A stretch of DNA of 50,513 bases. Source: Chromera velia (lineage: Eukaryota > Sar > Chromeraceae). The stretch lies in the NCBI GenBank assembly GCA_018398765.1, contig JAHBMJ010000121.1, forward strand, positions 5,459-55,971. The letters are read 5' to 3'. Shown here in pieces: positions 28,391-50,513 of the stretch. The notes beneath the pieces are model-generated. The model was given only the letters and a program-made list of their open reading frames with translations, did no database searches and was not told where the DNA came from. A program made the translations under genes and the position numbers. Every line of letters starts with the position of its first letter. Position 1 is the first letter of the stretch.

Positions 28391-30943
28391 ATGCACTCCT
28401 GTGAGCCGTTCCGAGCTATGAAGTCGAACCAGCTTCTGAGCTTCATTGCCAAACATTCCGAAGCCCAGATTCAAGGTGTCGGCACGCCGACGACCTCTCT
28501 CTCAGTCGATCCACATAGCAGGTCTCACAAAGTTGCAAAGCCACAAAGACGTCCGACTTCTTCTCCTCTTCATGGGAGAGCCGAGCCGCCGGGACTCAAT
28601 TTCCAAAGGGGTCCTCGGAGACGGCTCTTTTTTTGGAGCAAAAACAACTGATCAAGTTGTCGTCAACCTGGTCTTTTGGGAGCGTTTCATGCCTTCATTG
28701 GAATAGAATTTAGATCTGCAATGGAGCGGCGGGGTGATCAGGCCACTGCTGTGCGACAGCGCAAGCAAAAGGCCCAAGACAAACTTCGCCACTCCTACGA
28801 ACAAGCTGTCCTCCACTTTCGAGTTCGGATGGAGGGCTCCAAACTCATTATTCTTCTGCGGTAAGCTGCCCCACGTGTCTTCTCCCGGTAACAGCACATC
28901 ATCCACTTGCGACCTTGGATACCTGGATCATGCTTCCCCTCCCTGTTCCCGCCTGTCCTTGCGTGTATGTGGATATGTGCCTGCAGGCGTGGAGAGAAGG
29001 TCACAGTGGACGCGCCCTCGGTGTTCATGTGCAGCTCCCCGGGAAGCAAGCTGAAGACGAGTGAGTAGGCATCCGGCACACATCTCCGGAGAAATTATGC
29101 CCAGCGTCTTACAACTTTCTGTCTTTTCTTGACACTCCAATCCCTCCCTCCCTCCCTCACTGGCTGACTCACTGCAGATCTCCTCCCGAAGGTTTCGACC
29201 ACCCTGACCGCCCCTGGCGATGACGAGAAATCTTTGGTGGGTTCGTTCGTTGGTTGGTTGGTTGCTCGGTTGGTTGGTTGGTTGGTTGCTCGGTTGGTTG
29301 GTGGGATTGCGGGCCTGCCGTGTGAGAGAGAGGCAGGGAAGTGGGAAGGGAGAGGGTTTAAGCTCCACATGAGAAACAGAGAATGGAGACGAGCTAGAGA
29401 CAGGCGTACATAAAGCCCTGGACCGTCCAGGCAAGAAATTGGGACGCAACTTGTCCCTGAGGATAGAAAGGGAGGAAGCAGATGCAAAAGGAGGCAGGCT
29501 GAAAGTGCAGCTGGTAAAAGGAAGAAGAGGTGGACGAGAAGGGTACGAGCCATAACAGCTTTCTGGATTTTTTCGCGTGCACAGCGCTGAAGCTCAGAGG
29601 ACATCAGAAGAAGAGAGACAGAGCGAGGTCAAGGTCCCTTCTCCGGAGAAGAACTCTGGATGAATCCTGGATCGAGAAAATGGATCCCTCAGGAAGTGGG
29701 GCGTAAGGAAAGCGAAGCCGTGGGAAAGAAAAGGAAGCGAGAAGGGTTTTTCAACAACAGAATATCTCCTTCGCTGACAGAGAAACAACAGATGTATGGA
29801 GTTGGTGAGGGGAAGGTGAATGCCTGGAGCCAATGAAGAGAGAAGAACGAGAGGAAAGGAGAGACGGATAGAAACACGAGGCAGAATGATTGTCGTGGAG
29901 AAAAGTCCAGCAATCTACTTATGCATGTGGTGTCGTATGGCATGAAAGACCCGAAATATATGCTGTCCTCGTCTGGGGTGTCTGCATGTGCAAGCGCAAG
30001 AAGGTGAGGAGGCTTCTGGATTGATTTACTGCTTCATATGTGTCCTGCCTTCCTACCTGCCTGTCGTGTTTTTCTGTCTGACTGTCCGCAGGTAGTCGTG
30101 GACGCCGCGTCGTGCCACCACCAATTTGTTCCTCTCCGTCTGGCCGCTTACGGAACTCTGTACGTCCACCCGAACGCCTCATGTGTTGTGGTGGGATCCC
30201 CTGTGCAGTCCCGGGTGTCCGCCCCTGGTCTTCCCCACAGCCAGGCTCAAAAATTTGAATTGCCTCCGGGAAGGAGGGCAATTTCCCTGGCGAGTCTGCG
30301 GACTTCTTCCTCTTCCTCCTCTTCCGCAGGGGGCAGCTCTGGGCCTCAGATTGCCTCGTCAGCAGACATGGGCGTGGGCGTTGGTACCCCGATCAGCTTC
30401 GATGAGGACGTTGTTTTCCTGAGAGCCGATCCTTCGTTGTACCGCCACCGAGTCGTTAAAATAAAATCCGTCCGTCGGCGTATCTCCGAATTCTCAGCTG
30501 CGGTGGCTGCTGAGGAGGAGGAGAAGGAAAATTCGGAGACGGCGAATGGCTCCAAGATCTCACGGAGACGTGGGGGTCAGAGGGGACAGCAAAATGGAAC
30601 TCGGACAGGCGGGAGCGAAAGCGAAGGTGACACCGAGTCAGCAGGGGAGGAGTTCCCAGGTCCTTCTGGCAGCAAATCACCGAAGGGAGAGAATGGAGAC
30701 GGACGCTCTGCCGTCTCTCCCTCTGTACCTATTCCACCATTGCCCTTTCTTCGTGAAAGCGCCTTCCTTGAGTATTGCAGAAAACTGAAGGTATACAACC
30801 ACGAAGTGGTGGCGTGGACAGGCGGCATTCGGTTTGAAGTCAAAAGAAGCTGTTGCGGTGTGTTCAAGCAGTTGCAAACAGTTCGGGGTGACGGGTATGT
30901 TTGGCTCTGCAGTCCAGACTGGAACAGGCGGATGCATTTATAG
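28391..30943 (+). CDS. AIM24/TRAP-like domain protein (tentative)
   Basis: Model: join(28391..28521, 28714..28860, 28987..29060, 29178..29236, 30092..30943), 420 residues; a second in-frame ATG at 28418 gives 411. Junctions agree in phase; donors are GTCTCA, GTAAGC, GTGAGT and GTGGGT, acceptors mostly GCAG. The exon 1-2 join is the weakest. Three blocks resemble the AIM24 fold: KLIILLRRGEKVTVDAPSVF near the start of the domain, GTLYVHPNASCVVVG in exon 5, and a terminal EVVAWTGGIRFEVK...RGDGYVWLCSP. AIM24 proteins act in mitochondrial inner-membrane organisation in yeast; bacterial relatives are of unclear role. An acidic, Ser/Gly-rich insert of over 100 residues (30290-30720) splits the domain. 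No targeting peptide is obvious. The family call is by pattern memory and may be wrong; the gene itself is well supported. Confidence 0.55.
29241..29308. repeat. (GGTT)n microsatellite
   Basis: GGTT repeats with occasional GCTC interruptions lie just inside the 855-base fourth intron of the AIM24-like gene, beginning five bases after the splice donor. Confidence 0.9.
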
Positions 30944-31830
30944 AAGCTGTGAACTTTTACAGTGTGTGATTAGTATTTATTTTAGATTTTCTTAAGCTTA
31001 ATTGATTGATTGATTGATTAATTAATTAAATTATTATATTTGCATATATCATTGCTCTACTATAGGTTCTGCTAGACGGTTGCCGTGATGCTGGATGCTT
31101 TTATTGTTTCAATGGGTTGGTGTGTGCAATTTTACGCCTTTTTATATTGTGTAGACATGATGGAGACTCGGCTTAGGCTAATTAACATGCAATGACCCAG
31201 AACCTAATACTTATATTTGTTTATCTACTCAACTGGACAGCCTAGGACAGCCCTAGCTTATACAGAAAAGAGCTTTCTGGTTTGTTGACAGAATATGACA
31301 GAATCCGGCGGAGAAGACATGCAGGCGGAGGACTTATGTTTTAATTCTTCAAATTCATTTTGAGGCCGAGCGAGGCCGAGGTTCCTGCAGTATACTTCAA
31401 GAAGTTCAAGTCGGGAATCCTTCCGGCGTACCGCCGCTATCTCGACCCAGCTGAGGTTTGGCGCTCTTGGCCGAATTAAATTCAAACCGATACAGCTTTT
31501 CGTCCCCAACCGGCTCCACGTACACGCATGAATCAATCATGCCTGCATGCAGTGCGTCGACGTCTGCATGTTCACAGCAGTGTCGACTATAACCGTCTAT
31601 CTGTGATGTGGACTCACGACCTTGATGTATATGCCTGTCTCCAAGCATTCATAGTACGACTGTTAGCGGCATTTGCTGGCAACGCTCAATAGGCAGAGGC
31701 TGCTGCATCGGTTTTGGAGGGCACGCGCCACATATTTGTACAGAAACACACAATAAATATGGCAATGCTCACTGGCACAGCTTACTCAGCAGAGGCACAT
31801 CTTGGAACGTGACCTTCTTGATTTTGTACC
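30944..31830. other. Intergenic spacer between tandem genes
   Basis: An AT-rich first part includes an ATTG/ATTA tetranucleotide run near 31000-31030. The part after 31300 is mixed in composition and likely holds the anoctamin promoter. No coding exon recognised; minus-strand frames here look random. Confidence 0.5.
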
Positions 31831-32350
31831 ATGAGTTGGGGTGAGTATGAGCCTGACGTCTTGCTTGACGGTGCAGGAAGAGGTGGGGAGAAGGAGACGA
31901 AAGATACCCCGGATGTGGCTCCTGTGCTGGAAGAATCTGATCTCAAGAAGTGTTTCTGTGGCGTCCTAGATCCTGACGTCATCCGAAAAGTCAGCTCACC
32001 AAGCTCTGCATTGTTTCTCCTTTTCTTTCTGGTTATGTCCCTGTCCCACCCCTCCGGGCTTTTGGATGGCCGACTCGATCATTTTGCGTATGTGTGTAAA
32101 TCTGCATGCATGCGTCCATGTTGCTTTGCATGTACATGTGAGTCAGTCAATCTGATCATTTTTGGGTCGGGCCTTATTCAATCAACCAGCATGATCTGGA
32201 AAGCATTTCTGAAATGTCCAATGTCTGACGACCCTCCCCGAGTCCAACATTCTTTTACATGAGCAACACAGGCAGGCGGCAGCCAGTTAGTGAGTCAGTC
32301 CGTCAGTCAGTCAGTCAGTCAGTCTGTCTGTCTGTCTGTCTGTCTGCCTA

Positions 32351-32396
<46 letters not shown>

Positions 32397-35323
32397 AGTC
32401 AGTCAGTCAGTCAGTCAGTCAGTCGGTCAGTCAGGCAGGCAGGCAGGCAGTCAGTCAATCAGTCAATCAGTCAGTCAGTCAGTCAGGCAGGCAGGCAGGC
32501 AGTCAGTCAGTCAGCCACTCTGTGCGTGCCCGCAGAAAAGACTGGGGTGTACAGATCAACACGACGCCAACCACTTTGACTGGCAATTCGTCTTGGTGAT
32601 GCCGAGCGGAATCCCCCCTCCAGAAGAAGAGGTCAGAAGACAGCAGGAGGCCGGGGGGGGGAAGGGGTGAGGGACAGCGAAGCAGACGGCGTCGGCTGAA
32701 GAATGCAGAAAGAAGCTAAAGACACGGACTGCGTATCGAGAGTATTTTTGTCAGACGGAGAAAGAAAGTGCGTCTGTCTGCTCTCATCCCACCTTCAAGT
32801 ATAGAAGAGCCTGCCGCCACGGTTTCCCCTCGGAGCATGCATGACACATCTCGACAGCATGCATGACATAAGAATCCGTCAGATCGCCTTTCTTGCGTCC
32901 CTGATCTGGGATGCTGCGGCCTAAGGCCTGTGCATTTTGTGTTTCACATTGCAGCAAGGAGAAGGGCAGACAGCAATCGACTTCAAAAAAGCGTGTAGAA
33001 TCTTCGATGATTGTTTTCGGGTCCGTCAGCCTTCTTTCTGGAAAGAATCAGAAATCTGCTGATTGATTTCCGTCGTCTGAGCCTAATCGTTTCTTTGTCG
33101 ATTTCCTCTCATGAGTATTGATCCTTCTCCTGTCAGTGTATTTTCTCCACAAATTAAAGTTTTTCTGTTGTTTTTTTTTATCTGTTTGAAAAAATGCGTT
33201 TCCAGTCACCCTTCTGTTGTTGCACTGGTCTTCCTTCCTCACGTTTTAGTTCCTTTCCTTTCCATTCCTCCCTCCCTGCAGGGAGAGGAGGTCGTGGAAG
33301 CAGGGAGCTCACGACAGGAGGAGAGGACCGCCATTGAGAAAGAAGCGTTTCTGGACGCCTTCCAAGAACTCCCGGCCTTCTTTCCCAAATGGCGTCTCTT
33401 CGATCCAGACTGGCAACAGAAAATCCAGGAACACAAAATGCGAAGAGCCAGAGCTGCAAGACAACGCCCCCGTATGAACCTGACGAAGCAAATCAACGGA
33501 GCCCGCACCCCCAGGAACCAACGTCACAGATCCCCCAGCAGGGCACGAGGGACGCCACATGCACACGGAGGTTCCGTGAGGGGTTCTTTACGTTTTTCTC
33601 CCCAGGTGGAAATAGCGGGAGTACACCAGGCACCCCCTCCCCCCTCCCCTCTTGATATGGAAGAAGAAGCCGGGAGCAGTTGCTGGGGAGATGCCACGCA
33701 GAGTCACGGGGGGGGTGGAGGGAGCATGAGCCGAGTAGGACGAGACTGGCCCTCGGAGAGTGCTGGGTGGCCAAGCGAAGGTCAGGCCAGTGCCAGACAT
33801 TGGCCCGACGAGAGACCCTCAGCACAAGGAGTCGGTCAGACCGTGGGGGGGGGTTGGCCTAGTGAAGGTTTGAGTCGCACTCTCTCGGGGGGAAGGGGAC
33901 AGTGGCCCGACGAGGCGACCGGAAGCTCCAATTTCCGACGGGGAGGGACGGTAGATGACGGCTGGGATGCGTGGGGGGGGGCAGACGAGACGGTGGCCCC
34001 GTACGCCCACCGTGGAGATCCGGAAAGAAGCATCCGGAATGCTGGAGGGCCGAAGGCGGAGCCGGTCAGCGTGATGACTCCGGGAATGGGCAGGCAGGAT
34101 TCGGTAGGAGGGTATGAGGTGGTGACTGGAATAGGAAAATTGGGAGTTGGATTTTCGGATGTTTTGGGTTCTTCTTCTGTTGTTGGCCCTGCTCATTCAG
34201 GAAGAACCTCCGCCCTCCGACAGACCTCCTTCCGACAGGACGAGGGGGGTAGGAGAAGAGGAGGGGGCGCAATGGATCTGGAGGAAGTGGAAGAGTTGAG
34301 GCGACAAGTCGAGGACACTCTGTTCCCGAATGTCGTCTCAGAACAAAATAAATTGCGTACAGGTAGGCGCGCCCTCCGTTTTTGAAGACAGTTCGATCCT
34401 GCGGGAATTTTCAATGTGAAAACATGTGCACGAATCCTTGGTGGTTCAACAGGCCGATTGAGATCTGCTGATGAATCTTCGACAGTAACAACTTATCCCA
34501 GCATTGCTCACCCTCTTTCTCTCTCGCACTTCTTAATGCAGACAGGTCTCTCTCCACATGAGATATGCGCCGTGCGCTTTTTGTGCATGCGCATCTGTTG
34601 ACGTCAACCTGTGTGCATCCGAGAGCGAGTATTACTGTCTGCTTCTGTCAGTAAGTATGGTGTGAAATCAAAGCAGGGTGATTATTTCTGTACGTTTCTA
34701 ACCCTGCTTCACCTGTGTGCTTGCAGGACTTCCCCTGGACGTACAGAGAGTGACTGACGAGAGCCTGAACAGAAACTTTCAAGATCTGATGCTCAGAGTC
34801 GTTGTGGCTAAATTGAGTCTCCACTGCCAACTAGATGTCAGACCTGTCTTCTCGACAGACAAGAGGTAAGGAGGGAAAAGAAACCGAGAACGCTTCACTT
34901 TGCACCCGGGGCAAAGACACGGAAGTAGAAAGTTTCCTCTATTGTATATTTGACGTCACGGCTGCGAGAAGAGAGAAGACGCGCGGAATTTTCCAGGAGG
35001 GGAGTCTGAGTCCGCTTCTTGTAAGATTGCACTGTAACCTTTGTTGTGGTGGGTGTGAGTGCAGGAAGGTCTTTCTCTTCATCCGAGCCGACAGCGACGA
35101 CTTAGAGAGGGAGGCTGCTAGAAGCTCAACTCTCACCGAGGTCCGTCTGATGGGAAGGAGCTCTCGCTGAGCCTTCCTTCCTTCTTTGTGTCTCTAATTG
35201 TGGTGCATTCTTGCCCCTCGATCATTCTGCCCCTTTTATTGTTTTTGGAGCTCTCTAATCTCCATGGTTTTCATTCCTGTGGGAAATGTTTCTGTTCACC
35301 CGCGCGCGCGCGCGCGTGCGTGC

Positions 35324-35362
<39 letters not shown>

Positions 35363-37511
35363 AACTCAAATGACGCATCAAAAACGTTTCACCCCAACCT
35401 GGCTGATTGTCCTGTCCTGTCCTGTCCTGTCCTGCTGCAGTTGAAGGCCGCGCAGTTCGATGGAGATGCTCTGGAGCCCTGCACGTCGGAATTTGTCCCT
35501 CTGAGAGAGGCCGTTTTATCTCTTCTGGCGAGGAGGCCGGTGAGGCGCCACTGCCTATCTTTTCGCTGGTTTGCTACCCCACCTCTCTCTGTGTATGTGT
35601 AATGGATCTGCAGCTACAACGTGCAAGTTTGAGGAAAGACATTGATGCAGAAAGAACATTTAGACCGCAGCGGAAAGGTTGTTCGCTTCGGCCATTTCCA
35701 CAAATCACATTCTTTCGTTACGGTCATCAGTCGCTTTTGTAGAGACAATCATCCACACAGAGTCCCATCCTCGAGCCTCTGCTCCTTGCAGGAACTTCAA
35801 GACAAGTCAGAGGTCTCAGGCATCCCTCCTTTGCTCAAGATGGTTGCGGCATCCTTCCAAAGGGTGGCCGATTCACCAGCTGTAAATATGGCAGACCTGC
35901 CTCACGTGAGGTCAGCAAGACAAATCCAATCCAACAGCTGCAACATGAGGGTCATTGGCGATGAAGAGAATGGAAAGCACCTCCATGCATCGGCGTAGGG
36001 CAAAGAGTTTCGCTGTCAAGAGCGTAACCAACAGATTGCACAATACGGAACACCAGCTGTTGTGTCCCTTGCCCCTCTTTCGCCATAGCAGGTGTCCTCC
36101 ATGCAGATTAAGTCATGCAGAATACTCTGCTCGCCTGCTGTATGTTTGCCTGCTTCTAGCTTCAAGTTCTTCCTTGTCTAATCTTTTTTTTGTTGGCCTC
36201 CTTGCCTGCCCTTACGGTTTGCATATGCACAGCATCTTTTTGGACTGGTGGGACATGACTGGCCGAGCCGAGGTGGAGCAGTTGGGAGATGCTGCGGTGT
36301 TGGCCTCCGAGAAGCGGCAGTTTCTCTCTGTGCTGAGGGGTGCTGAGAAAGAGGCGTTGAAGATCAAGGAGCAGGAGGCGAAAGCGGCACAGAAACTTGA
36401 TGCCTCGGAGAAGAAGAGAGAGCAGGCAGCTCTCGACAAAGACAAAGAGAAAATGCTGGGTCAGCGCAGGCAGCAAAGAAAGGGCTTTCAAAAAGTTTTT
36501 TGCTAGGAACTCTTTGGCACCTGTGAAAAAATTGCTATGCGACTTGACCTGCATGTCTCTATTGATTCCTTCTGCATGCAGGCTTGACGACCGCGCTTCT
36601 GCAGACGGTGAGCCACCGAGACGCAGAGACGAGGGAGGAATGGCTAGAGGAATGGATGGACGAGGTTCGGGACAAAACGGAAGCTCAGAAAGGTCAGTCA
36701 TTTTGCGGAGTACTCAAACAGTCAGATACTGGTTCTGTGCCATTGTGCGTCCTTTGGACCCCTTCCATTTGGCAGGCTGAGAATCCACCCAAGAAAGAGA
36801 AGTCCAGCACAAATGTTCATGCACAAATCCATCGTCGCTGCTGGGAAACGAAGACTTCTGAGCAAACCCCATAATGCTCATTCTGACTTTGCTGCAGGTT
36901 GTGCAACACAGATGCAGTTGCGATGCAAAAAGGTTTCAACGAAGGGGTCCTCGGAGGGAGCCGCAGGTATCGAAGAGCCGGTGAAAGTGGAGAGGACAGA
37001 TCGCGAGGTTCTCAACACAGCAAAAACATTCAAAGGGTATGAAAGAGGGGAGAGAGAAGGGGGTCTGATCAACAAGCACGGTGGGACAAAATTCTCCACG
37101 CGAGAGACTGTGTACTGCTGCCTTTTCTCCTTCTTGCAGATTCCTTCGCCTCCTTGTTGAACTCCCTTCTCTGGGTTACTTTGAAGCACTCACTGCTGTC
37201 AGTCGCCTTCTTTTGAGCGGGGTGCACATTGACTTTGAGTGCTTTCAGCCTCTCCCTGAAGAGAGAGAGAATCCTGCGACTCAGCTGACGCATGACACTA
37301 CTCCTTCTCTTTCTGGCTTCCTTCCATTAATGAGGACTTGGTGTCTCTCTCAACTTTGAGCGGCACCTTCGATTTGTGCCTTATGCAAAAATGACTCATC
37401 GTGCAATTCAGATTCCTGCTGTGTTTCTGCATGCAGGCCAATGTGGAGGCAGAGAGGGAAGCCTACAAGATTCGGAATCTCTGGGGACACCTGGCATTTC
37501 CTGTCAGTGGT

Positions 37512-37549
<38 letters not shown>

Positions 37550-37631
37550 GTGTGTGTGTGTATTGCGTCCGCTTTGTTCTCGTCTATCTCGAGGTGTTTG
37601 TTCGCCTAATTGTTTTTCGTACCGTGTGCTG

Positions 37632-37687
<56 letters not shown>

Positions 37688-40600
37688 TACGTGTTCACTT
37701 GTCAATCTGTGTGTGTTTCTCCATGTGCACGGTTGCGGTGTGCACAAGTCGTTTTCTCAAGCTGTCGGCCTGCGAGCTCGCTCCACACAACTGTACTTCT
37801 GAGTGCTGTCGATATTTTACCCTTGCCTTCTCCCCTCTGTCGAATCTTTCTGGCCAAATCGTTGCAGGAACCTCCCCCCGCTTTTGCACCCTTCAGCTTC
37901 AGTGAGAAGCTCGAACCCTTGTGGAAGAGGGAGACTGTGGATACAGACGGAGACGGAACCTTCCTCGCCCTCTGGACACCCGGTCAGAAAGGGGTTTGGT
38001 GGGTGGGTGAGTGGATCGAGGAGTGAATGGGTCAAGGAAGGTGGGGAGGGAAGCTCGTACCCCCCCCCCAAGAAAGCCGATGCTTTCTGTTTGCGTGTGC
38101 ATTCATTCCATCGTATTCCTGATGCATGTATGCCCCAATGGATGGAGGTTTGTCTTTGACACTGCATGCATGTGTGTTTGACTGACCTTCGTGGCTTTAC
38201 ATGCAGCTGGGCGTCTGAAGATCCTGAGTCACCTGATAGATCGACAAGTGAAGATACCCAGGCTCCTCCAGCACAAAGTTGCAGAGGAATTTTTCCCTCT
38301 GGACTCCTATCACAAATTCGAGAGCGCGGTGAGTCGCTCAGATAGGAGTGCACCGATTCAAATAGACAGACCGGCAGAAAGGTAGTGGTGACCCGAGTGG
38401 ACAGAATGAACAATATGTTTTGCTCCTCGAAGAATCAAGGGGCAACGCTGATTTCTTCTGCTCGTGGTAGCTCGGCTCTCCTGTTTTGGGTTTGCATCTT
38501 CCAGCTACAGAACTCCCTGTTGGTTGACTGGCTCCAAAACTTTTGCAAGATAGACGTAGGGCCCAGTTCTGTTCACATAGCTGCTCGCGTGTATTGCCTT
38601 CTGCACCGCAAACTTGGTTCAGTGCGACCATGCAGGAAAGCTGTTGTACTAAATTCCTCAACGAAGCGGGGTCTTCTCGCAGCTAGCTTTCATTCACATA
38701 CTCTTTGACTGTTCTTCCCACTTGATTCGCAGGGCCTGGTCCACTTTTGTTCGATCGATTCCCGCCTGTGGCCCCTGACCAAGCACATGACCAGCCAGAG
38801 GGAGGCCTGGCTGAAGGGCGACAAGGAGGGAAACATCGGGCGTCAAGCCCACTTTGTCAGCACGGGAAGCAGAAAAAACAGGAGTGAACCTGTAGGGGAC
38901 AGCGAGGAAGGCAAAACAGCGGCTGGGAAGCGGGAGAGAGAGGAATCGAAAAACCTCATCCTCGCTGAAGACCCTCCTTATCCTCAAGAGATGACGGCAA
39001 ACGAAATCGCAGACTTTGTCAGTCCACTATTTGCGATGCGACTCTTCTGCTCTGAAATGCTCTGCTTTTCTGAGTTTCCTCTGGGCCTAGCGCCCTTGCA
39101 GAAAGCACCCACCTAGTGGTCGGTTCTTCTGCTTGCAGTGAACGTCGCTCCGTTTTCTATCTATCTGTCTATCTTCCTTCTTTCCTTCCGTCCTTCCTGC
39201 CTGCCTGCCTCACCTCGTTCATTCTCACACTCCCTTTTCTATTCTCTGAAAAGGTTTAAGCTTCAGTGTGTCATTTTGGGATGTCCAATACGCATTCCGA
39301 CTCTCTTACAGAAGGGAGAGAGGAGGTCTGATGTTCGGTTGCATAATATTATTGTTTGCAGGTAGACCGACAGCCTAAGAGGAATTTCATGATGGCGACT
39401 TTCGACTTTGTGAGAACGATGACCATCCACACGCCTCTCGATGCCTTCCGTGCATACTTTGGAGAGAAGGTAAGCAGAGTGTGCAAGATACCTGAGACAA
39501 GAACATGTTTGACTGAATCAAAATGAGCAAACTGTGAATTCAGACGAGGATTGTGCAAGAAAGTCCGCAAATTAACTTTCCAACAGTAGCCTGGTGCCTC
39601 TCTCTTGGCAGAGCAGCATCAATTGCTCCCCCTCCAAGACCAAGAGAGGTTCTGTCTTTTTGAATGACCGTCCGTCAACCTGCCTCAGAAAGCCCTGAAT
39701 TTCTTATTTTTTGTGCTTTCTCTGTTGTGCTGTTGCAGGTGGCTTTCTACTTTGCTTTCTTGGTCAGTCAGTTTTTCGGACATTTCTCCAGATCTCCAAG
39801 TCTCAGTTTTTTGGGCAGACACAAAAAATTTGAATTGAGAAGGGAGCAGCGACCTCCTTCTCAAGTACATTTTGAAAATGAGCCGGGAAGAGAATTGAGC
39901 AGTATTTGAGGCCCTAAGCGCACTCTCGTTTCCCTAAGTTCCTCTGCCAACGTGTGTGTGTACGTGTATGTGTGTGTGTGTGTGCCTGTTCGCAGGGCCA
40001 TCTGCCGGCGACTTTACTATCAGCTGGGTATCTCGGAATGGCGGCTTGGATCATGCAGTTGGTGATTCCAGACAAAACGGACGGAAGGAGGAGGGCTGTG
40101 GACATCGGCTTTTCCTTTTGCGTCGTTATCTGGGGGGCTTTCTGTCAGTTACCTTCTCTACCGTTTCTGCATTCGTTATCGTCCTGGACCTTCCCTTCAG
40201 TTTCCTGTCTCCGCTGAGTCCTGCACTGAGCACTCTTGACGCCTCCTTGCCCGTCCTTTTGCCAAATAGAATGCACGGACAAAGAGCTCAGCAAAGCAGA
40301 GAAAGAGGAGAGAACGAATGACTTCTCACCCCCTCTCCCTCCTCCTCCTTGCAGTCATCTCCAGCTGGAGACGGGAGGAGAGATTGTTGGGAGACAAGTC
40401 AGTCGAGGAAGGAAGGAAGGAAGGAAGGAAGGAAGGAAATTGCATGGGGTCCATGTCGTTGTGGGTTCCTTCCAGGCAAAGCCGTGCAAGTGAATGAACA
40501 TGAGTAAAGGCCGACAGAGATTATGAGGGTGCGTATACTACCTTTCCCGACTCCACTTCAATTCCTGACCCCATTCTCAAACTATAGTTTCTTGAGCTCT

Positions 40601-43600
40601 TGGATGTTTTTCAACGTCGTTGCGCTCTTTCATTTACTCACCAAATCTTTTCATGTGAGACTCCATTCAATTATGCTTTCTTCGTTTTGTTGGACCAAGA
40701 AAAAAGACTGGGGCACAGGCAGAATGCGTGATCGATGGTGCAACTGTGCGCAGATGGGGCATGTCAACTCTCTCGAAGGTCCAGAGGCCAAGACCGGAAT
40801 TCAAGGGAGAGACCAGGAGATCACCTGTGAATGAGACTGAGACGGACATTTTCTTTCCGACCTACATCACGTGAGTGTTCCCGAAGCTTTTCCCTTTCTT
40901 TTGTTTCTTATTGTCTGCATGTGTGCCTTCTAAGTGCCTATCGCTCCGTTGGTCTGGCTGTCTTTTGTGAGGACCTTCGTGTCGATGGGTCTCTTCTATT
41001 GTGTGTCCGGCTTTGGATGTGCTCCAGATCAGATGGGCATCGATGCTCTAGACATGTCTGAAGCTTTTATCTTTCCACTTTCGCTGTGGAATGAATCGTG
41101 AGGTATCGTTTGATTATGGATCTTCCCTTCATAGCTTCCACTTGCGAAACTCCATCCATGCAGCTTCTGTCTCTCCTTTTTGTGTCTCCTCCTCTTTTTC
41201 TCGCTTTTTCTCTTCAGACTCCTCCGGATATCCGTCGGTGCGGCGATCATCGCTGTGCTTGTGACCAGTTCGGGTCTGTCGAATGAGGGTCTTCCGCTTT
41301 CTTTCAAAGGGGTCTTTTGTGCGGGTACATCTCGACATTTCTCTTTTCCCTTGTCTTTTCAGGTGGAGTGCTTCGTGTGTGGCTTTTATAAATTGTTCTT
41401 GTCGATGCCAGCTGGTGGTTGATGAGAGGTTGACCTCTTGTCGTCTGATGTTGCGATCCTTTCTTTGGCTCTCCTAGACGACCATCGACTCCATGCATAA
41501 AAAATGAATCTGGTTTTGGAATCCTGTTGCTTTCTTCCTTCTGCAGCCACAATTTCGTACTGGCTTGCGATTTTGCGAAGTGTCTGGACAAAAGAAGTGG
41601 AGGACGCATGGAAAGCATACAACGATGGGGGGCAGGAGGGGCCCTCTCCTCGGGAGACAGTGAAGTGGTATATCGCGAAGGAGAACGCAACGACTGTGAC
41701 GAGTGTCATTGACTCTCTTTCAGGAACTGTATTTACAAGTGGAGGGGGCATGCTGGTAATTGCACTTTGTGACTGGTCCGTTGACATGTAGATGAGTTGT
41801 TTTCATGGTTTCAAGAGGGTATCTGATTAGTCTTTCGCTCACATTGTGCGCTTTCAAAGCGGTGACAAGCTTTGGCCAAGCTGCTGTGAGTTTCGTTGTG
41901 GCATATTCGTGAAGGGTTTGACACTCTCTCAGACTCTCAGGGAGAGGCACGCAGAAAGCGAGGGCTCTAGAGATAGAGCAAACCAGTGCAAAAGCGAGAC
42001 GGCCACATTGAGAGAGACCAAATAGGAAGATTGAAAAAGCGGGGTGTTCTGACGATGAGCAAAAACAAAGTCATCGATCCCAAAGATGCAGGCGAGTGTG
42101 AATTTCTCAAAGTGGACGGAAGTTCGAGGCCGATTGACTTTACGAAAACACAATCAGAAAGTCCTCATTGCACCCTGCAGGTATAATGTCAAGTTCAAGA
42201 CGACCTACGAGGCGCTCCTCGCTTACGAAGCGTTTGCCATTCAGGTGACGGTCAAGTTTTGGCCTTTCGTCCTCACCGCCTTTTTCAAGCCGGCCATCTC
42301 GGTCAGTCAGAGAGCCACCACAGGCTCTCACTGATGGCAGGCGGGCAGAAAGGCGTATTTGTGAAATCCTTTTGACGAGAAAAGGTCGACTTATTCTCGA
42401 GAAGAGTGGAAGGAAGATTCTTGCACACTCCTTGGCTTTCTTTCTCTGCTCCCTTTTGCGTTCAATTTGCTTCTCTGTCTGTCTGCATGCAGGGCTGCAT
42501 CGTTCCCGAGACAGAAACTCCTTTTGTCAGCTCGACAGAGTTGGTGTTGCCAGAGGACAACCCCAGCTGCCTCCACGAATTGAGGAATCAAATCTTCACT
42601 GCATTCATCACTCAGGTCGGACGTACTGAAGTCTCATTTGTTCGTGCATCCATCCATAGCGTCCGTACAGAAGGCAACAGGAAGGAAAAAGAAGCCCCTA
42701 CTTCCCATCCATTGCATCGTCACGGAGAGGGAGGCCTTTCTCATTGATGAGTCCCCCCCTGTGCATGTCCAGAGGAATTTCCACGATTAAGTGTCGTTGA
42801 AGAAGGCTCGTACTACGATGCTGTTCCTCGCTTGCGAGACACGTGATTCTTCCTTTTCGGTAGACCAAAGTCTGTGAATCAATAGGGGAACCCCGCGAAA
42901 GCTACATTGCTTGCTGCCCCTTAGCACATCTTTCTCCTTCACACCCACTTGACAAGAGTTTCCTACCAGTGGCTATTTGGCTTTTTTTTTGTCTCTGCAG
43001 ATGTCTTTGAATCTGGTCGAACTCGCAACCCCTTACGGGACCTATTTGTTTCATGAATACTACAGGGACTGGCGCTTTTGTGTCAGAAGGAGAAAGCAGG
43101 TAGGCGCTTTTGTGTCAGAAGGAGAAAGCAGGTAGGCCCTCTCTTCTCGTGTCAGAAGGAGAAAGCTGGTAGGCTTTTTTGTGTCAAAAGGAGAAGCCAG
43201 GTGGCAGGGGAGGGCCCTTCACAAAAGAAAAACCAATCACAAGAGCTCCTCTTCCACACCCACACGTCAAAACACCGAAGGAAGAACTTATCGATAGTAG
43301 GAGTAGTGCAGTCTCTCACTCTTGAGAGAGAAAGCAATAGAGAGAGAATAAATCCATGCAACACAGGAGACAAATAGAGTTGCAACCCCATTGGTTGCAC
43401 GCCAACCTCCGCCCTCCGCTTCCATCTGCAGGTCCGGGAGAGCCTCGCAACTCAAAAGCCGCTCCCGCCGGACCTCAGCGCTTTCGTGTCCGTTCCCCTC
43501 GAGCAGAACGCCTCTCGTGTTCTTGACCCTTCTGTGCCCTCTCCCCAGGATGGAGACGGAAGAGCGCAAGCGCAGGTCTGCCTTCAAAGTGCAGCACAAC

Positions 43601-46600
43601 AATCATCATTCATGAACTTATAACAGAAAGACAAGAATGCAACATCCTGTTGGTGGAGTAGGCTTTCTTCGAATCACTTTACTCAGCTGCTTTGCCGTCG
43701 AGGGGTGCGGCCCTACAAGACTGACATTGATTGTGCAATCGTGAATGTTCGTTAATACATACGCAGGCGGCCCCCTCTGCTGCCTTCCCTTCTCCTTCTT
43801 CGCCTCCGACTCTCCTGAGGGCTTCTCTAGAGTACGCAGCCAGCCGCCAGTTGCAGCAGCCCGTGTACACGACAGGAAAGCTTGACGGGGCCTGGTCGGA
43901 CTACAAGGAGGTCAGCTGTGGGAGGGCAGGGTCAAACATGAAAGCCACTGAATTTTTGCTGCTGAGTTGCTTTTCCAGACGGCGCTGCGGATAGCCAGCC
44001 AGCAGCCAACTTGAGCTCCTTGTTTGTGCCGAACGGTTTGTCAAACTTCGAGTTCAATGTTGGTTTGGATCGAGTGATTGCGAACAATTCCAATCAGCAT
44101 GGTTGAAGCAGAAAAGTTGCTCCAATTTCTCTCTCGTTTGGTCTCAAGCGGTCTCTCATCTTAAAAAGCAACGAATCTGCTGCCTTGTTCTGGCTGACTG
44201 CAGCTGATGGACCTGATCTGTTACATGTCACTCTTCGTCGTTGCCGTCCCTGCTGCTCCGTTTGTCTGCTTCTTCTTCTTTCTCCTGGAGGCAAAGGTGG
44301 GAGAGATCGGTTGGAATGGAAGGGAGGGGAGGGGAAGAAAAGGGAAGGAAGGGGAGAGAGAGGGTGCACAGCGGAAAGAAAGGGAGAACAAAGAGACATT
44401 CATTGATCTTGAATCCTGTAGGCGGGGGAAGTCTGTTTCTTCTTTATCGTTGTCGCTTTCTTTCTCTTGCGACAGGGTCGGATTTTCTTTTTGTCTTCGT
44501 CACTCTCAGCGCCAAGCTAGGCCTGAGGTCTTATCGGCCTTTTGTCCTCCTTCCTTAATTCCCTGACTTCATTCCTTTTGCGAGTAATTGCAGGTCGATG
44601 CCATCAAAGTCTTCCACCTGGTTCGAAGACCCACGCCCGAAGATGCAGACAGCATTGGACCGTGGATTGTTGTCCTTGACGTGGGCCGTGTGCATTCATC
44701 GGGTTGATAGGGGGGGGGCAGAGAAGCGATAGTTGACACACTTGTGTCGAGGCAGCTGTGACTGTCTGAAAGGAGGTGAGTGATGAGGGGGATAAACGAA
44801 ATCTTCCAGAACAGTTACAGTCAGCAAGCAACGAGAGAGAGGTGACAGAGTCACTTAGAGTGGTATTCTGTCCTTCATTGAATGACTCTCGGGTGTTTGT
44901 GTTCTTGCAGGCAATATTTGTTCTGGCAGTCACGTGCAATGCCCTTTTGCTGGTCTACGTCTTCGGGTCAGCTGAGCTTTCTTTTTCGCATCCAGTCTGC
45001 TCCTTTTGTGTGTGGTGTGTATTTTTGAGCCAGTAATCTGCAAGTGCGTGTTGTTCTATTCTAGGCTCTGGAAGCGTGACACATGCATATGCACATAGAC
45101 AAGGGAAACAGTGCATTGCCTAAGAGGAAATATTGATTTGCATGCATGTGCTCCCGTTTTGATCAAGTCGCCTCTTTTTCGCATTGTGTCATTCGGCAGG
45201 CCTCTCTGTTTTTGCTCTTTGCTTTCAGCATGTCAATGTGACAAAGTCACGTTGTGGCTCTGTGCGTGTTAGTAACCATGCAAAGAGTGTAAAAAACAAC
45301 CTGGACTGGGTCATAGCATGATCATCAATCGTGTCTCTCTCTCTCTCTCTTTTCTTTTTTTTATCCTGCAGGTCCCTGGACTTCCTGATCTGGCCTCGCC
45401 CCGGTCCGGGTCGGGGTCTGTTCAACCAGGACACGGGGCGGCATGCGGCCTTCGCGTTCCTCTTGCTGGTCTTCTGGGTGGTCTCCAAGATCACGCAGTA
45501 CAATATCGACCCCACATTGGAGGTCGGCATGCTGAATGAAGATTTGCTCCGGTCACGTGAGAAATGAAACAGAGATTTCATAACCGGAAAATATCTAGAA
45601 AAAAGTTGGGGGTCGTTAGACAAATGCACCGCAAGTTGAAAGAAGCACGTTTGTCCCTACGGAGTTCAACGTCCATTTTCCTTCCACCTGGTTGGATGAA
45701 TTGATTGATGGGGAACAGGAACGTCGACTCTTTCCGGAAGGAAGGAAGGAAGGAAGGAAGGAAGCGAGGAAACATTCATGGACATGGCATTGCATGCATG
45801 CGCAAGAGGGAAGGGGAAAAGTCCTTCTGAGATGCAAACAACCATCGAGCACCCGGTTGCAAGAACACTCTGCGACTGCTTGAGGAAGAATAAACTGTGC
45901 CTCTTGCAGTCCTTCTCGGCAGATCTTGCCCTCGCTTGAATGGACCGACAGTCAACTGCAGAAAGACAATATGGAACAGTATTCGCAAACGCCTTTACCG
46001 CTCCTTCTGTTTGTGTCCTCAATGCAGAGATTGGAGGTCGCAGCAAAACGGTCGGAGGCCCAGCTGACTTTGTGGGAGGGAAAGAATTTGAACGTCAAGA
46101 AGAGGAGCGACGCGGGCGTGTTCTTGGAAGGTGAGTGTCATACAGTAGTCGGGTGCTCTGGAGGGGACCTGAAAATAAATGAAATCGGTGTTTTTATGCG
46201 CTGTCCAGTACTTTTGTAGAGATTGAGCTACACTTAGTTGAAGAATCTTGCGAGTTATTTGTCTTTCTTCTGTTTCTTGACTAGTTCCTCTTTCTCTCTC
46301 TCTATCTTTGTCGGTTCTTCTGTCTGTGCAGATCCCGAGACGTCACTGAGGGCCCCTCACAGACTGCTCGTTGACCCCCATCAGTACGCTCTGAGAAAGC
46401 AGGCCATAGAACAGTAAGTCGATAGTGATCGGCCACAGCCTTGCATAGCCGGTTGCATTCTTACTGGTTTTCTAGAACTGCTTTGTCTTTCGGTCTTGGA
46501 GCTGGTGTGATCCCCGCGAACGGAAGCTTCCACACATCTGTTTGTCAATTCATACATTGGTTCACTGGTTTTAATCTCCTCCCTCTTTTATCAAACCCTT

Positions 46601-46742
46601 TTCACCGATTTTGTATTTTGTATCGCCTTTTTGCAGGCGAAAGAAGGCCGAGGCCCGTCGTGCAGCCTCTGCTGAGAAGATCTTACGGGAAGAGCAGCAG
46701 AGGGCAGGCAAACAACCAATTCCAGCACAAAACGAAGTTTGA
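31831..46742 (+). CDS. Anoctamin/TMEM16-family membrane protein, 36 exons
   Basis: Model (1,684 residues): 31831-31989, 32536-32631, 32955-33020, 33282-34362, 34727-34865, 35065-35140, 35441-35539, 35792-35910, 36233-36459, 36582-36692, 36898-37036, 37140-37197, 37437-37502, 37868-37982, 38207-38328, 38505-38555, 38733-39017, 39362-39469, 39739-39762, 39996-40143, 40355-40397, 40754-40870, 41218-41273, 41547-41787, 42181-42301, 42493-42615, 43001-43099, 43432-43575, 43767-43910, 44204-44296, 44594-44680, 44911-44966, 45372-45522, 46028-46130, 46330-46411, 46637-46742. Anoctamin hallmarks in order: AYFGEKVAFYFAFL before TM1, RPRPEFKGETRRSP after TM2, LAYEAF...FKP, NLVELATP (TM6), DYKE...VPAAP (TM7), EAKVDAIK and IGPW (TM8), FAFLLLVFWVV near the end. 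Family members are Ca2+-activated scramblases or chloride channels. Five of six Ca2+ ligand positions are kept. The ~1,000-residue N-terminal part is unusually long: a 360-residue disordered exon 4, a charged coiled coil in exon 9, and a DTDGDG loop in exon 14. Exon 8/9 and 16 boundaries are slightly less sure. Confidence 0.87.
32286..32513. repeat. (GTCA)n/(GTCT)n microsatellite in intron 1
   Basis: About 225 bases alternate between runs of TCAG and TCTG, with short AGGC and AATC patches. The run ends ~20 bases before the acceptor of anoctamin exon 2. The long Ser/Gln/Val/Cys open frames across it are repeat artefacts. Confidence 0.95.
35301..35361. repeat. (CG)n(TGCG)n(TG)n microsatellite
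   Basis: The run grades from CG to TGCG to TG dinucleotides within anoctamin intron 6. CCTGT pentanucleotides follow at 35409-35434, directly before the exon 7 acceptor. Confidence 0.9.
37510..37687. repeat. (TC)n, (TG)n and (AG)n microsatellites
   Basis: TC repeats at ~37510-37551 pass into TG. A second (TG)n(AG)n run lies at ~37637-37687. Both are inside anoctamin intron 13. Confidence 0.9.
40409..40438. repeat. (GGAA)n microsatellite
   Basis: Seven GGAA units lie just after the donor of anoctamin exon 21. A similar GGAA run is at 45738-45765 in intron 33. Confidence 0.9.
43072..43200 (+). repeat. Tandem duplication of exon end plus splice donor
   Basis: Four copies of a ~32-37-base unit stand in tandem: GCTTTTGTGTCAGAAGGAGA then AAGCAGGTAGG. 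Copies 1 and 2 are identical over more than 30 bases; copies 3 and 4 have diverged (AGCTGGTAGG, AGCCAGGTGG). The unit covers the last ~28 coding bases of anoctamin exon 27 together with its 5' splice site, so potential donors follow 43099, 43131, 43168 and 43200. Only use of the first keeps the frame to exon 28. Confidence 0.9.
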
Positions 46743-49087
46743 GTAAAACAGCGGAAAGTATCAGAAGGTGTAGAATTGTGTAGCTATAGTAAATAATTAT
46801 TTCAAAAATCTATAGCTTATATTAATCAATATTTAAAGTCAAAAAAAAAAATTTCTACTTGAGCCACATGCTAGGCCACAAGTTATAATTAAGTAAAATT
46901 ATGTAAAACTAGATCAAAAACCTAAAGCAAAATGATATACGTACAGCGTAATAAAAAATATTAAAGATGATGATAAAACTATTAAAGAATAAGCTTCAAT
47001 AAAGAATAAAATTATCTCTGCATGAAAGATTTTAAACTTCAATCTTCAAGTTAAGGTTGATATGAGCTCCGAGTCCCATAAGTAAGTTCAAATATTTACT
47101 TTTATATTAAAGATCGAGTTAAAAAAACAATGGCCCAGGTGATATGGGACTCACATCATTGGCGGGTGCATGTTTGAACGCTAGTTTGAACATTTATAAT
47201 CTAGTCTATAATTTTATTAGGCATGGACTTTAGTTAGTTAGTCAGTTTAATAACTTTAGTTTATGACCCTATAGAGAACTAACTAACTAACTAAACTAAC
47301 TAAACAGTTTTGACCTATTTAGGTACTACTAGTTTGACTCTAACATTTGAGCAGTATTAATTTATACCCTTCCCCCCCCCCCCCCAACAATGGGCCAACG
47401 GTTGGACTTAGTGTGGTTTGAGGCACAAGGCCTCCTTTTGGATGGGGTAACACACCGTTTTCTGTTTGCGGCAGGGAGTCAACGTCATAGTACTTCACTC
47501 TTGCCTCCTTCGCAACGATATTGGTGGGGCTGACGCGGATGAGTATGGCCCTCCCTAGCTTTTCCTAGCTCTCTCAGTTGTCCTAGGCGGTCCTGGGAGG
47601 AGAGGATCACGCAGTACTGTTGTAACTGTTCTGCTGCGTGCCAGAGCTTTGTCTGGCCTCTGCAGTACAAGCGGGTGTGCAGAAGCATGTGGGGCCTCTC
47701 TGTATACTCTGTCTCCCAGCTGGCTCTGGAGGCCGCTGCTTTGCATTAATTCCCTGCCTAACTAACTTTAACTGACTAACTGATTAACTGACTGACTAAC
47801 TGACTGACTAACTAACTAACTGACTGACTGGTGGCTCTATACATGAAGCTATATGAACAATTTTGAAAGTGTTTTTTTGACAATGTCTAAATTATCATTT
47901 TTATGATTCAATATCATGTTGGTTTATAGTGTTATAACTTTAAAATTCTGAAATTTTTTGATTTAACATCGTAGACTTTTCTAGTAAATTTTTACTAGTA
48001 GATAGTGATTCAGACTCGGAGCTTCCCATGCAGAGAAGACGCCTTCGACGGGCGCTCGTTAAGTCCAACTCAGACTAGTAACTCAGACAATGCTAGCAGA
48101 TAATGAGTAATCAAACCTTTTACAGTTTAACACATCAAACTAAACTAACTAAACTAACGACCACGTATAACTAGTTTAGTTCATAATTTAGTTAGTTAGT
48201 TTAGTTTTCTTCTAGCTTTTTTTGGGAAATATCAACTAACTAAAGAACTAAACTAACTAAAGTCCACGCCTAGTAATTTTAGCTATGAGTTCCAAAACAA
48301 GAAACACATTAACATAGGGGTCTAGATATGAGGGGGGGGGGGTGGTATAGTATATAGAGACGTGCCTAGGGGCTACGCCTTAAGCGCGTTGTATATAAAG
48401 GCGTTTTGCCGTACGGGTAATGCCCTTAGGGTGTTATGTTATATATATAAGGTCTTAGACAAGCTATACCTCTAGCTATACTTCTTCATTGACAAAAAAT
48501 TGAGTTAAACTCACAAATAATTATATTGTGCTCGCTAGATTTAGCCAGCTTACATCAGCCTACGCCCTTTAATATATTAAAATCTGGTCATTAGATCAAA
48601 ATCAAACATGATTCATTCATTCTTGTCTGTTGTGGAAGAAGGTCCTTGTCAGTATTGAATGCTCCCATGCATCGCCCTAGAAAGCGCTGAGCGCTCTCCC
48701 AACACCCTCCTACGACCTGCTATGCCCCTGTAGGGGCGTTGTATATAGCCGTCGGCCGAAGGCCGATGCCCCCCCCCGAGGCGCTATATACACGTAATTT
48801 GTGACGTAAAGCCGACAACGCCCTTTCATAGGGTGTTGTGATAGCAATTCTAGACCCCTATACATGAACCACTCTGTTAATTTACTTGAATCGTCATTGC
48901 CCCCACTATCCCCTAGTATATATCCAGCATTCTAACTAGCATTTAGGCTAGCATAATAGTAGTATTCAATATCAATTATCCCAATCTTTAAATAGAGTTT
49001 TAAGAAATTAAGATACAAAAAAAATCTTGTTAAAAATCTCTTAAACTTTAAATTATAAAAAATAAATAATGCTAGAAACAATGTTAT
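46743..49087. other. AT-rich gene-free stretch with AACT-type repeats
   Basis: No coding exon is visible across 2.3 kb. Features are (AACT)n/(AGTT)n runs at 47273-47306, 47757-47832 and around 48130-48260, a C14 run near 47372, a G9 run near 48335, and GC-rich hairpin-prone DNA at 48370-48440 and 48715-48860. A moderately GC-rich island at 47390-47750 has open frames but no protein character; I cannot assign it. Confidence 0.6.
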
Positions 49088-49590
49088 GATGATGATGATT
49101 GAGGGTTAAATCCTAGATCTAGCGACGCCAGATCCCAAGCCACTAACAAGGCTTTGAGGACAACCCAGAACACACATTCACACGGGGGGGGATGAGGAAG
49201 CCTGCATGCCAATCGGATCGATTCGCCTTAACCACATCTACGGAGGCGCATGGAGACATAAGCGCTCGGTACACGCGCACACCACATTCATACATTAAAT
49301 TCTGAATCAATCCGAAAAGAGAGTAAAGGCAAGGATGGATGAGAGGTGATGAGAGAAAAAACGGAGTTAATGACAGACTCTTTCGAAGATCTCCACTGGC
49401 TTACGCCGCCCAAAGGCAAAGTGGCAACTCAATCGAAGCAATCAATACCATAATTCAGTCACCAACTTGACAAGGGAAGAGGGAACCACAAAGGTTCAAG
49501 TTTATGCTCACAATATGATCAGCTAGTTTTTATGAGGAAGGAGTAAAGAGAGAAGAAAATTTGATAAAGATAAACACCTGATCAATCAAG
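49088..49590 (-). repeat. ~505-bp dispersed repeat, right copy (inverted)
   Basis: The reverse complement of this block matches 1835-2343 nearly base for base. It lacks the ATGCCT hexamer present in the left copy and has minor substitutions (for example GTGAGCATAAAC versus ACGAGCATAAAC). It ends 67 bases short of the stop codon of the partial gene at 49657. Confidence 0.9.
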
Positions 49591-49656
49591 TATATACACC
49601 CAAACATACATACAAACACCAAAAACGCATCACCGAAAGCCCAATCGACCCAGGGC

Positions 49657-50513
49657 CTACGGCCATCTCACAACGTACTCGCAGATCTTTTGATGTGTTT
49701 GGAAGACCGTGCTCTCCCATAACTTGGGAGTTCCGTCTCCATCTTCGACAATCAGACGAGTCATTCGTCCTTCTGGCCCAACGCTTGCATGAGCCGTGCA
49801 GCCGTGTTGATTTGCCAGATAGTCCAGCATGGCAACTGCCGTCTCTTGCACGAGGAGCGGGGAAAGAGAAGAGCTGTCTCTTGTTGGGTTGAAAGAAGAA
49901 ATGTCTTCTCCTTCAAAGGCTGGCTTCACAGGCTGGTTACACAAGAAAACTATAAAATTCTCACTACCAGCTTGCTCCTCTTTTGCCTTTTTCTTCTTTT
50001 TCTTCTTCTTCTTCTTTCTCTTCTCTGTTGTATGGCCCTTCCCCTCTAGCTCCCCCTCCTCCAGACCCTCATATTCCTTCTCTGATTCAACAATGTTTTC
50101 ATCTGAGGGGGAAGCGGTGTTTGGAGGGGGACGAGCTCTGCAAGCGTCTGAGAGGGAAGGGAGGCTGGATTCTTTCGGAAGGAGACGAGAGCCGCAAGCG
50201 CTAGCGCAAGCGTCTGTAAGAGACGGCGAGGTGGAGTTGTTCGGGGGGGGACGAGTGCTGTAAGCGTCTGCCGAAGCTACAGAGGCTTGTACAGAGGTGG
50301 GAGAGGCTCTTGTTTGTGGGCATGGAGGCGGCAAGGCTTGTATAGAAGTGGGAGAGACTCCGGGGGGACCTGCTTGTAGGCACAGAGGCGGCAAGGCTTG
50401 TGCAGAGGTGGGAGAGGCTTCTGCTCGCAAGCACGGAGGCGGCAAGGCTTGTGCGGAGGTGGGAGAGGCTTCTGCTTGCAGGCACGGAGGCGAGATGGCT
50501 TGCGCGGAGGTAG
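49657..50513 (-). CDS. Pro/Ala-rich repeat protein, 3' part
   Basis: The frame is open from the window's right edge to a stop at 49657, so the start lies outside. The visible N-terminal part is a tandem peptide repeat of about 17 residues: ALPPPCLRAEASPTSAQ with variants ALPPLCLQAGPPGVSPTSIQ and ALPPPCPQTRASPTSVQ. Then come a Ser/Pro-rich spacer, an acidic stretch (SEKEYEGLEEGELEGK), a run of ten lysines, and a compact C-terminal ~100 residues beginning ENFIVFLCNQPVKPAF and ending ICEYVVRWP. I do not recognise the C-terminal domain. Low complexity upstream suggests a flexible tether. Upstream exons or regulation cannot be seen. Confidence 0.6.
   Translation of the reverse strand, partial: TSAQAISPPCLQAEASPTSAQALPPPCLRAEASPTSAQALPPLCLQAGPPGVSPTSIQALPPPCPQTRASPTSVQASVASADAYSTRPPPNNSTSPSLTDACASACGSRLLPKESSLPSLSDACRARPPPNTASPSDENIVESEKEYEGLEEGELEGKGHTTEKRKKKKKKKKKKAKEEQAGSENFIVFLCNQPVKPAFEGEDISSFNPTRDSSSLSPLLVQETAVAMLDYLANQHGCTAHASVGPEGRMTRLIVEDGDGTPKLWESTVFQTHQKICEYVVRWP

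Follow-up and report, generated by a model that had tools for sequence, protein, structure and literature searches.

In canonical U2-type introns the 5′ splice site reads GTRAGT, and its purine at +3 is usually explained by U1, although during activation the same base also lies against U6. In Saccharomycotina the +4 base has shifted from A to U with the loss of METTL16, a change also linked to SNRNP27K and explained by the U6 ACAGA box rather than by U1 (PMC10581693, in extract). Donors of the GURAG type require a purine at +3. In the alveolate Amoebophrya, according to the sections of PMC7789003 consulted, intron ends are mostly not GT-AG, some introns form repeat families (introners) and U1 was not detected. 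Here we examine the donors of an anoctamin (TMEM16) gene of Chromera velia that lies in a stretch of 50,513 nucleotides (assembly GCA_018398765.1, contig JAHBMJ010000121.1, positions 5,459 to 55,971; the whole stretch is called the window), together with those of three dynein genes and of a genome sample.

The 5′ splice site of C. velia follows the consensus AG/GTNNGT, with C the commonest base at +3, in about half of the introns examined. C leads at +3 in each of the four genes and in the genome sample, and the G at +5 is nearly invariant. Over 97 introns from the four genes (62 from dyneins and 35 from the anoctamin), +3 is C in 54, G in 20, A in 17 and T in 6; +4 is A in 47, +5 is G in 96, +6 is T in 62, −1 is G in 82 and the acceptor reads TGCAG in 70. 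The AG/GT exon junction, +5 G, +6 T and canonical U1 and U6 are shared with GTRAGT introns, as are GT-AG ends in alignments that favoured such ends, but a purine occupies +3 in only 37 of the 97 and A occupies +4 in only 47.

The likeness to Saccharomycotina is that of a lineage-wide change at one position of the 5′ splice site that the ACAGA box of U6, rather than U1, may explain; in C. velia, however, the position is +3, A is still the commonest base at +4, and domain matches of METTL16 type and to SNRNP27K are present. The exon-end AG and the +5 G are both common in C. velia, but in place of the purine of GURAG donors it mostly has C at +3. C. velia and Amoebophrya are both alveolates with unusual splice signals, but the published C. 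velia anoctamin, under an aligner that penalised other ends, fits GT-AG in 31 of 31 introns, and U1 is found.

We found no description of the C. velia 5′ splice site in the open-access literature as far as its accessible text goes; the main text of the genome paper, in extract, has 'splice' nowhere and 'splicing' once (PMC4501334), and a supplement or database may already show the logo, which anyone could draw from the public annotation. C. velia, an alga related to malaria parasites, is a natural setting for testing which RNA reads the third base of an intron: where both RNAs are standard and +3 is mostly C, the roles of U1 and U6 are separated and one can ask which decides. Software for gene finding or splice prediction that was trained on GTRAGT would be expected to overlook introns in C. 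velia, a photosynthetic relative of Plasmodium and Toxoplasma.

Donor sites of the anoctamin gene

The anoctamin model was re-derived exon by exon from listed reading frames and GT dinucleotides. It comprises 36 exons and 1680 amino acids with no internal stop (Table 1), and its best match is the UniRef anoctamin of C. velia CCMP2878 (P0001). Its 35 donors carry C at +3 in 22 cases, A in seven, G in six and T in none, which bears out the GTC majority that an earlier note on this DNA had put at 21 GTC, 8 GTA and 6 GTG. The commonest donors follow the order given there, GTCAGT (8), GTCAGC (5) and GTCCGT (3). The G at +5, described as often kept, is present in 35 of 35, and acceptors ending in GCAG number 32 of 35, as counted from the model list; A stands at +4 in 22 donors. 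Some donors had been called the only phase-compatible choice: this holds for 20 of the 35 introns, where the last 30 nt before the stop contain only a single such GT; these 20 read GTC in 15 cases, GTG in three and GTA in two.

The published protein provides a model independent of both the earlier note and our own. According to the C. velia genome paper, genes were predicted by Augustus after training on curated and Cufflinks models, and introns from RNA-seq mapped by TopHat2 served as evidence (PMC4501334, in extract). Spliced onto positions 29001-47000 of the window by an aligner that penalised ends other than GT-AG, the protein aligns from residue 53 through its end, and does so without mismatch, because the score of 6392 is that expected of 1660 matching residues plus 31 introns. 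The DNA is that of C. velia or of a source that cannot be told from it here. Its 31 donors have C at +3 in 19 introns, G in seven and A in five, with G at +5 in 30.

Of these donors, 26 coincide with re-derived ones. The published model adds three introns upstream (29061-29177, 29237-30091 and 30660-31876), with extra exons from at least 29001, and uses two alternative donors, at 38007 and 39767. The part shared by the two models begins at 31877, so the re-derived first exon, from 31831, is not the published start. Seven re-derived exons (numbers 2, 16, 20, 22, 26, 27 and 30) are skipped in the published model; since all seven are open and in frame within 31831-46742, and some carry what we take to be the conserved anoctamin core, the published model is probably incomplete.

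Table 1. Anoctamin coding region and its 35 re-derived donor sites, in window positions.
Feature	Donor	+3 C	Start	End	Strand	Model
Anoctamin (TMEM16) coding region			31831	46742	+	36 exons, re-derived
Donor 1	GTCAGC	yes	31990	31995	+	both (re-derived and published)
Donor 2	GTCAGA	yes	32632	32637	+	re-derived; exon skipped in published
Donor 3	GTCCGT	yes	33021	33026	+	both
Donor 4	GTAGGC		34363	34368	+	both
Donor 5	GTAAGG		34866	34871	+	both
Donor 6	GTCCGT	yes	35141	35146	+	both
Donor 7	GTGAGG		35540	35545	+	both
Donor 8	GTCAGC	yes	35911	35916	+	both
Donor 9	GTCAGC	yes	36460	36465	+	both
Donor 10	GTCAGT	yes	36693	36698	+	both
Donor 11	GTATGA		37037	37042	+	both
Donor 12	GTCAGT	yes	37198	37203	+	both
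Donor 13	GTCAGT	yes	37503	37508	+	both
Donor 14	GTCAGA	yes	37983	37988	+	re-derived; published uses GTGAGT at 38007
Donor 15	GTGAGT		38329	38334	+	both
Donor 16	GTAGGG		38556	38561	+	re-derived; exon skipped in published
Donor 17	GTCAGT	yes	39018	39023	+	both
Donor 18	GTAAGC		39470	39475	+	both
Donor 19	GTCAGT	yes	39763	39768	+	re-derived; published uses GTCAGT 4 nt downstream, next exon skipped
Donor 20	GTCAGT	yes	40144	40149	+	re-derived; exon skipped in published
Donor 21	GTCAGT	yes	40398	40403	+	both
Donor 22	GTGAGT		40871	40876	+	re-derived; exon skipped in published
Donor 23	GTCTGT	yes	41274	41279	+	both
Donor 24	GTCCGT	yes	41776	41781	+	both
Donor 25	GTCAGT	yes	42302	42307	+	both
Donor 26	GTCGGA	yes	42616	42621	+	re-derived; exon skipped in published
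Donor 27	GTAGGC		43100	43105	+	re-derived; exon skipped in published
Donor 28	GTCTGC	yes	43576	43581	+	both
Donor 29	GTCAGC	yes	43911	43916	+	both
Donor 30	GTGGGA		44297	44302	+	re-derived; exon skipped in published
Donor 31	GTGGGC		44681	44686	+	both
Donor 32	GTCAGC	yes	44967	44972	+	both
Donor 33	GTCGGC	yes	45523	45528	+	both
Donor 34	GTGAGT		46131	46136	+	both
Donor 35	GTAAGT		46414	46419	+	both

Dynein genes and genome sample

The genome (177.8 Mb in 4040 contigs) was searched for dynein heavy chains, and stretches from three contigs (C1340, C3589 and C18) were used. Introns were placed by a spliced aligner from a protein profile of 35 of the 120 listed relatives, the named ones of which include apicomplexans, dinoflagellates and ciliates; an intron could start at any GT (GC being penalised) and end at any AG, with no other scoring of sites. 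Among the 120 proteins listed for the C1340 dynein none is named as C. velia (many rows are nameless, and the best identity is 71%), so its introns rest on proteins of relatives and not on RNA-informed models. Before filtering, the 35 introns of the C1340 dynein have C at +3 in 15, G in 13, T in four and A in three, with +5 G in 34; the 13 of C3589 have C in eight, A and G in two each and T in one, with +5 G in ten; and the 27 of C18 have C in 18, A in six and T in three, with +5 G in 26. The near-invariant +5 G emerged without being scored, which argues that these junctions are right.

Each dynein junction was also re-aligned with its donor forbidden, and those less than 5 bits better than the best alternative were dropped (13 of 75); this cut-off was picked after the junction list had been viewed, and the 35 anoctamin introns were exempt. 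C remains at +3 in 32 of the 62 dynein introns kept, more often than at other intronic GTs (p 0.0013 for the dyneins alone). After filtering the four genes have C in 22 of 35 (anoctamin), 14 of 34 (C1340, with G in 13), 7 of 10 (C3589) and 11 of 18 (C18), and with no cut-off the totals are 63 of 110 for +3 C and 105 of 110 for +5 G. All 97 introns start with GT and end with AG, in an alignment that allowed only GT or GC and AG. The enrichment of C at +3, the +5 G and the stereotyped acceptors noted earlier are real and extend beyond the anoctamin.

For a sample of the genome, 20 arbitrary stretches were taken at regular contig numbers, of which 17 had fewer than 5000 Ns and were kept for analysis. 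A first run on random loci was discarded, having returned 433 introns in real and 455 in reversed sequence (+3 in real sequence C 159, G 138, T 83 and A 53; reversed A 144, C 126, G 113 and T 72). The gene finder retained for the sample took the four genes as training set for its coding and site models and had a donor model flat at +3 and stricter penalties, which were judged by hand over six settings and were not tuned on +3; C is the commonest +3 base in all six runs on real sequence. Blind to +3, it predicted 150 introns, spread over 16 loci, where reversed sequence gave 24; C stands at +3 in 70, G in 41, T in 24 and A in 15 (reversed: A and G 8 each, C and T 4 each). With the donor flat from +3 to +6 it predicted 171 introns against 40, with C in 67, G in 49, T in 37 and A in 18, and recovered +5 G in 92 of 171 against 8 of 40. 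A coding model of higher order gave similar results, for example C 66, G 49, T 23 and A 18 of 156. Because the predictions include false introns, these base shares are rough.

U1, U6 and splicing proteins

U1 was sought by a family search of the whole genome, after which the C. velia U1 served as query for a search of the DNA. The family search returned one locus above the cut-off and two below, and five U1-like loci were found in total. Three retain the 5′ end, all reading ACTTACCTG, and the remaining two match only from base 12 and from base 6 onward; a U1 whose base facing +3 is changed to G was not found, 3 of 3 loci with a 5′ end reading alike. The C. velia U1 starts AAACUUACC (locus L001, 1501-1511), with A at position 2 where the Rfam consensus has U.

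Seven U6 loci lie above the family cut-off, and no changed ACAGAG box occurs among them: the box, including the G that would face +3, is kept in 7 of 7. One copy (L009) reads ACAGAGT where the other six read ACAGAGA. The genome therefore has the U1 with a canonical 5′ end and the U6 ACAGAG box that mark U2-type splicing, and the compensating changes in the U1 5′ end or U6 box for which the earlier note had proposed to look were not seen.

Two matches to the U1C zinc finger lie above the cut-off, and the first exon was read in the DNA. The METTL16-type methyltransferase domain has two partial exon matches above the cut-off and SNRNP27K is matched above it too, in both cases with the letters unread; the METTL16 call is tentative for this reason and because PF05971 also matches control prokaryote genomes.

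Base composition and four-base arrays

As background for the donors we took the 1784 other GTs inside the 97 introns (from +9 to −45), which are followed by G in 598 cases, C in 558, T in 435 and A in 193. C is enriched at donors (54/97 against 558/1784, p about 2e-6), and against the same background donors prefer C to G (p 3.6e-5) and to T (p 4.7e-8), and A to G (p 0.006). Donors thus favour A or C above G or T. In the window and the 20 sampled loci TpA stands at 0.52 of expectation and CpG at 0.70, and C is commoner than A at donors because TA is scarce, which disfavours GTA.

These introns begin in degenerate repeats of four bases, and end in four-base repeats, that are phased to the splice sites. 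Across the 97 introns GT occurs at +5 in 61, at +9 in 26, at +13 in 21, at +17 in 17 and at +21 in 15, and at other offsets up to +24 in 0-11; upstream of the acceptor T peaks at −5, −9, −13, −17, −21 and −25, in phase with TGCAG. Predicted introns of at least 100 nt in the sample (n = 137) show the same, with GT at +9 in 32, +13 in 20, +17 in 17 and +21 in 23, against 3-13 at other offsets from +10 to +24. The donor bases +3 and +4 are often copied at +7 and +8, both of them in 26 of 97 introns (10 expected), and +3 equals +7 in 52 (31 expected). The C1340 dynein shows this phase most strongly, the anoctamin weakly. When each intron is counted once, the excess is only 45 against 28 on the donor side (p 0.06) and 62 against 31 on the acceptor side (p 0.002), and in the 59 introns without perfect end repeats the donor phase holds 37 against 15, 21 and 22. 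Tandem copies also occur at interior GTNNG sites, where 162 of 573 are perfect (at donors, 18 of 97). Arrays are thus a general feature of these introns, one that comes into phase at the splice sites, and on their own they do not account for the C at +3.

How +3 may be read

We favour, with a probability of about 0.42, the reading that +3 is read by U6 more than by U1, composition being a close rival. U1 would keep its binding at −3 to +2 and at +4 to +6, and would tolerate a C opposite its sixth base, and +3 would be selected at the later hand-over to U6, where it would face G44 of the ACAGA box. This is the register of PMC11732430, a 2025 review that, in the part consulted, describes the +3 base, usually A or G, as interacting weakly with U6 G44. 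C forms a Watson-Crick pair with G44 and A and G cannot, so each GTC donor would trade U1 pairing for U6 pairing. Depletion of TpA may have helped to remove the ancestral A, leaving C as the favoured replacement. As expected of a shift driven by U6, the favoured base is one that can pair with the facing base of the ACAGA box, C with the G44 kept in all seven loci. Nearest-neighbour energies in a fixed register, averaged over the 97 donors and ignoring pseudouridine, m6A and proteins, are −7.89, −4.46, −7.76 and −4.71 kcal/mol for U1 pairing with A, C, G and U at +3, and +3.82, +0.96, +3.39 and +3.13 kcal/mol for ACAGA pairing; a change from A to C would, roughly, weaken the former by about 3.4 and strengthen the latter by about 2.9 kcal/mol.

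Associations of +3 C with neighbouring bases were assessed in 28 tests, uncorrected. C at +3 goes with A at +4 (33/54 against 14/43, p 0.008), which in human structures lies opposite U6 m6A43, and with C at +7 (p 0.013), and it is negatively associated with G at +4 (p 0.02), +6 (p 0.01) and +7 (p 0.002).

Several observations weigh against the reading by U6, as do the simplifications of the energy calculation. That +3 meets G44 in C. velia is presumed from human structures. Once the background is corrected for, donors are enriched in A as much as in C (p 0.89), and part of the C majority is therefore composition. C follows a GT at +5 with equal frequency (32/61), and an account by splicing alone would predict this only if the unit is copied. 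T could form a wobble pair with G44 but is the rarest of the four at +3 (6/97). At −3 to −1 the GTC sites of the 97 introns do not differ significantly in a way that would offset the U1 mismatch, and in the sample, where counts are small, C is sole leader in 8 of 16 loci and tied in 3, with another base ahead in 5. The earlier note's suggestion that U6 pairing could dominate keeps its place as a candidate, sharpened to C at +3 against G44; on the other side, composition accounts for part of the shift from A to C, given the depletion of TpA and an enrichment of A as great as that of C.

Mutation and composition could also set the base: GTA would be lost to TpA depletion, slippage of 4-base units (GTCA, GTCT) would supply GTC, and the spliceosome would be indifferent at +3 wherever +5 is G. 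We regard this as quite possible, though short of an even chance. It accommodates the scarcity of TpA and of A after intronic GT, the equal enrichment of A and C, the C that follows a GT at +5, and the intron starts that lie in 4-base arrays, with +3 repeated at +7 and GT recurring at +5, +9 and +13; among the tetranucleotide repeat units of the 20 sampled loci, moreover, ACTG ranks second in frequency and ACAG third. Arrays are nevertheless not needed for +3 C, because C stands in 38 of 71 donors whose NN is not copied and in 35 of 64 introns with low-repeat starts, and composition leaves unexplained both the ratio of C to G, 54:20 at donors against 558:598 elsewhere in the same introns, and the depletion of T at donors. 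An origin of C in the arrays alone explains part of the data and is kept within this explanation rather than dropped. That the whole pattern reflects the hand selection of donors was a natural concern, both hand models having picked among several GTs with a single choice in no more than the 20 introns above; yet the published model shows the same C majority, and automatic alignment of other genes, with no donor scoring, yields the same logo and recovered +5 G unasked. We reject this artefact, which is for practical purposes refuted.

The remaining explanations change the machinery around U1. An altered protein factor (U1C, a LUC7-like protein or another part of the U1 snRNP) would free U1 from needing a pair at +3. 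The canonical U1 RNA means that tolerance must have another source, two matches of U1C type are present, and indifference at +3 would fit the kept pairing at −1, +5 and +6, but such a change accounts for tolerance and not for C over G, and we think it improbable. A second, compensated U1 with the 5′ end ACTGACCTG, its G facing +3, would explain the GTC donors directly, and a copy could be missed if diverged or unassembled; the three U1-like loci with a 5′ end all have the standard one, though ACTGACCTG itself was not searched as a pattern, and we hold this to be highly improbable. Returning to the reading of +3 by U6, its broadest form joins three parts: that +3 moved from purine to C genome-wide, that it did so with U1 and U6 untouched and is read by U6 G44, and that GTNN arrays, seeded by the donor and locked to its phase, serve as a ladder of in-register backup donors 4 nt apart. 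This combination we consider rather unlikely.

Neighbouring sequence

Elsewhere in the window, two long frames at 2632-5340 (−) and 14428-20364 (+), of 902 and 1978 amino acids, resemble PPR-repeat proteins, judging by their translations. Past the anoctamin gene, positions 46760-50513 are AT-rich, with runs of ACTA/TTAG repeats.

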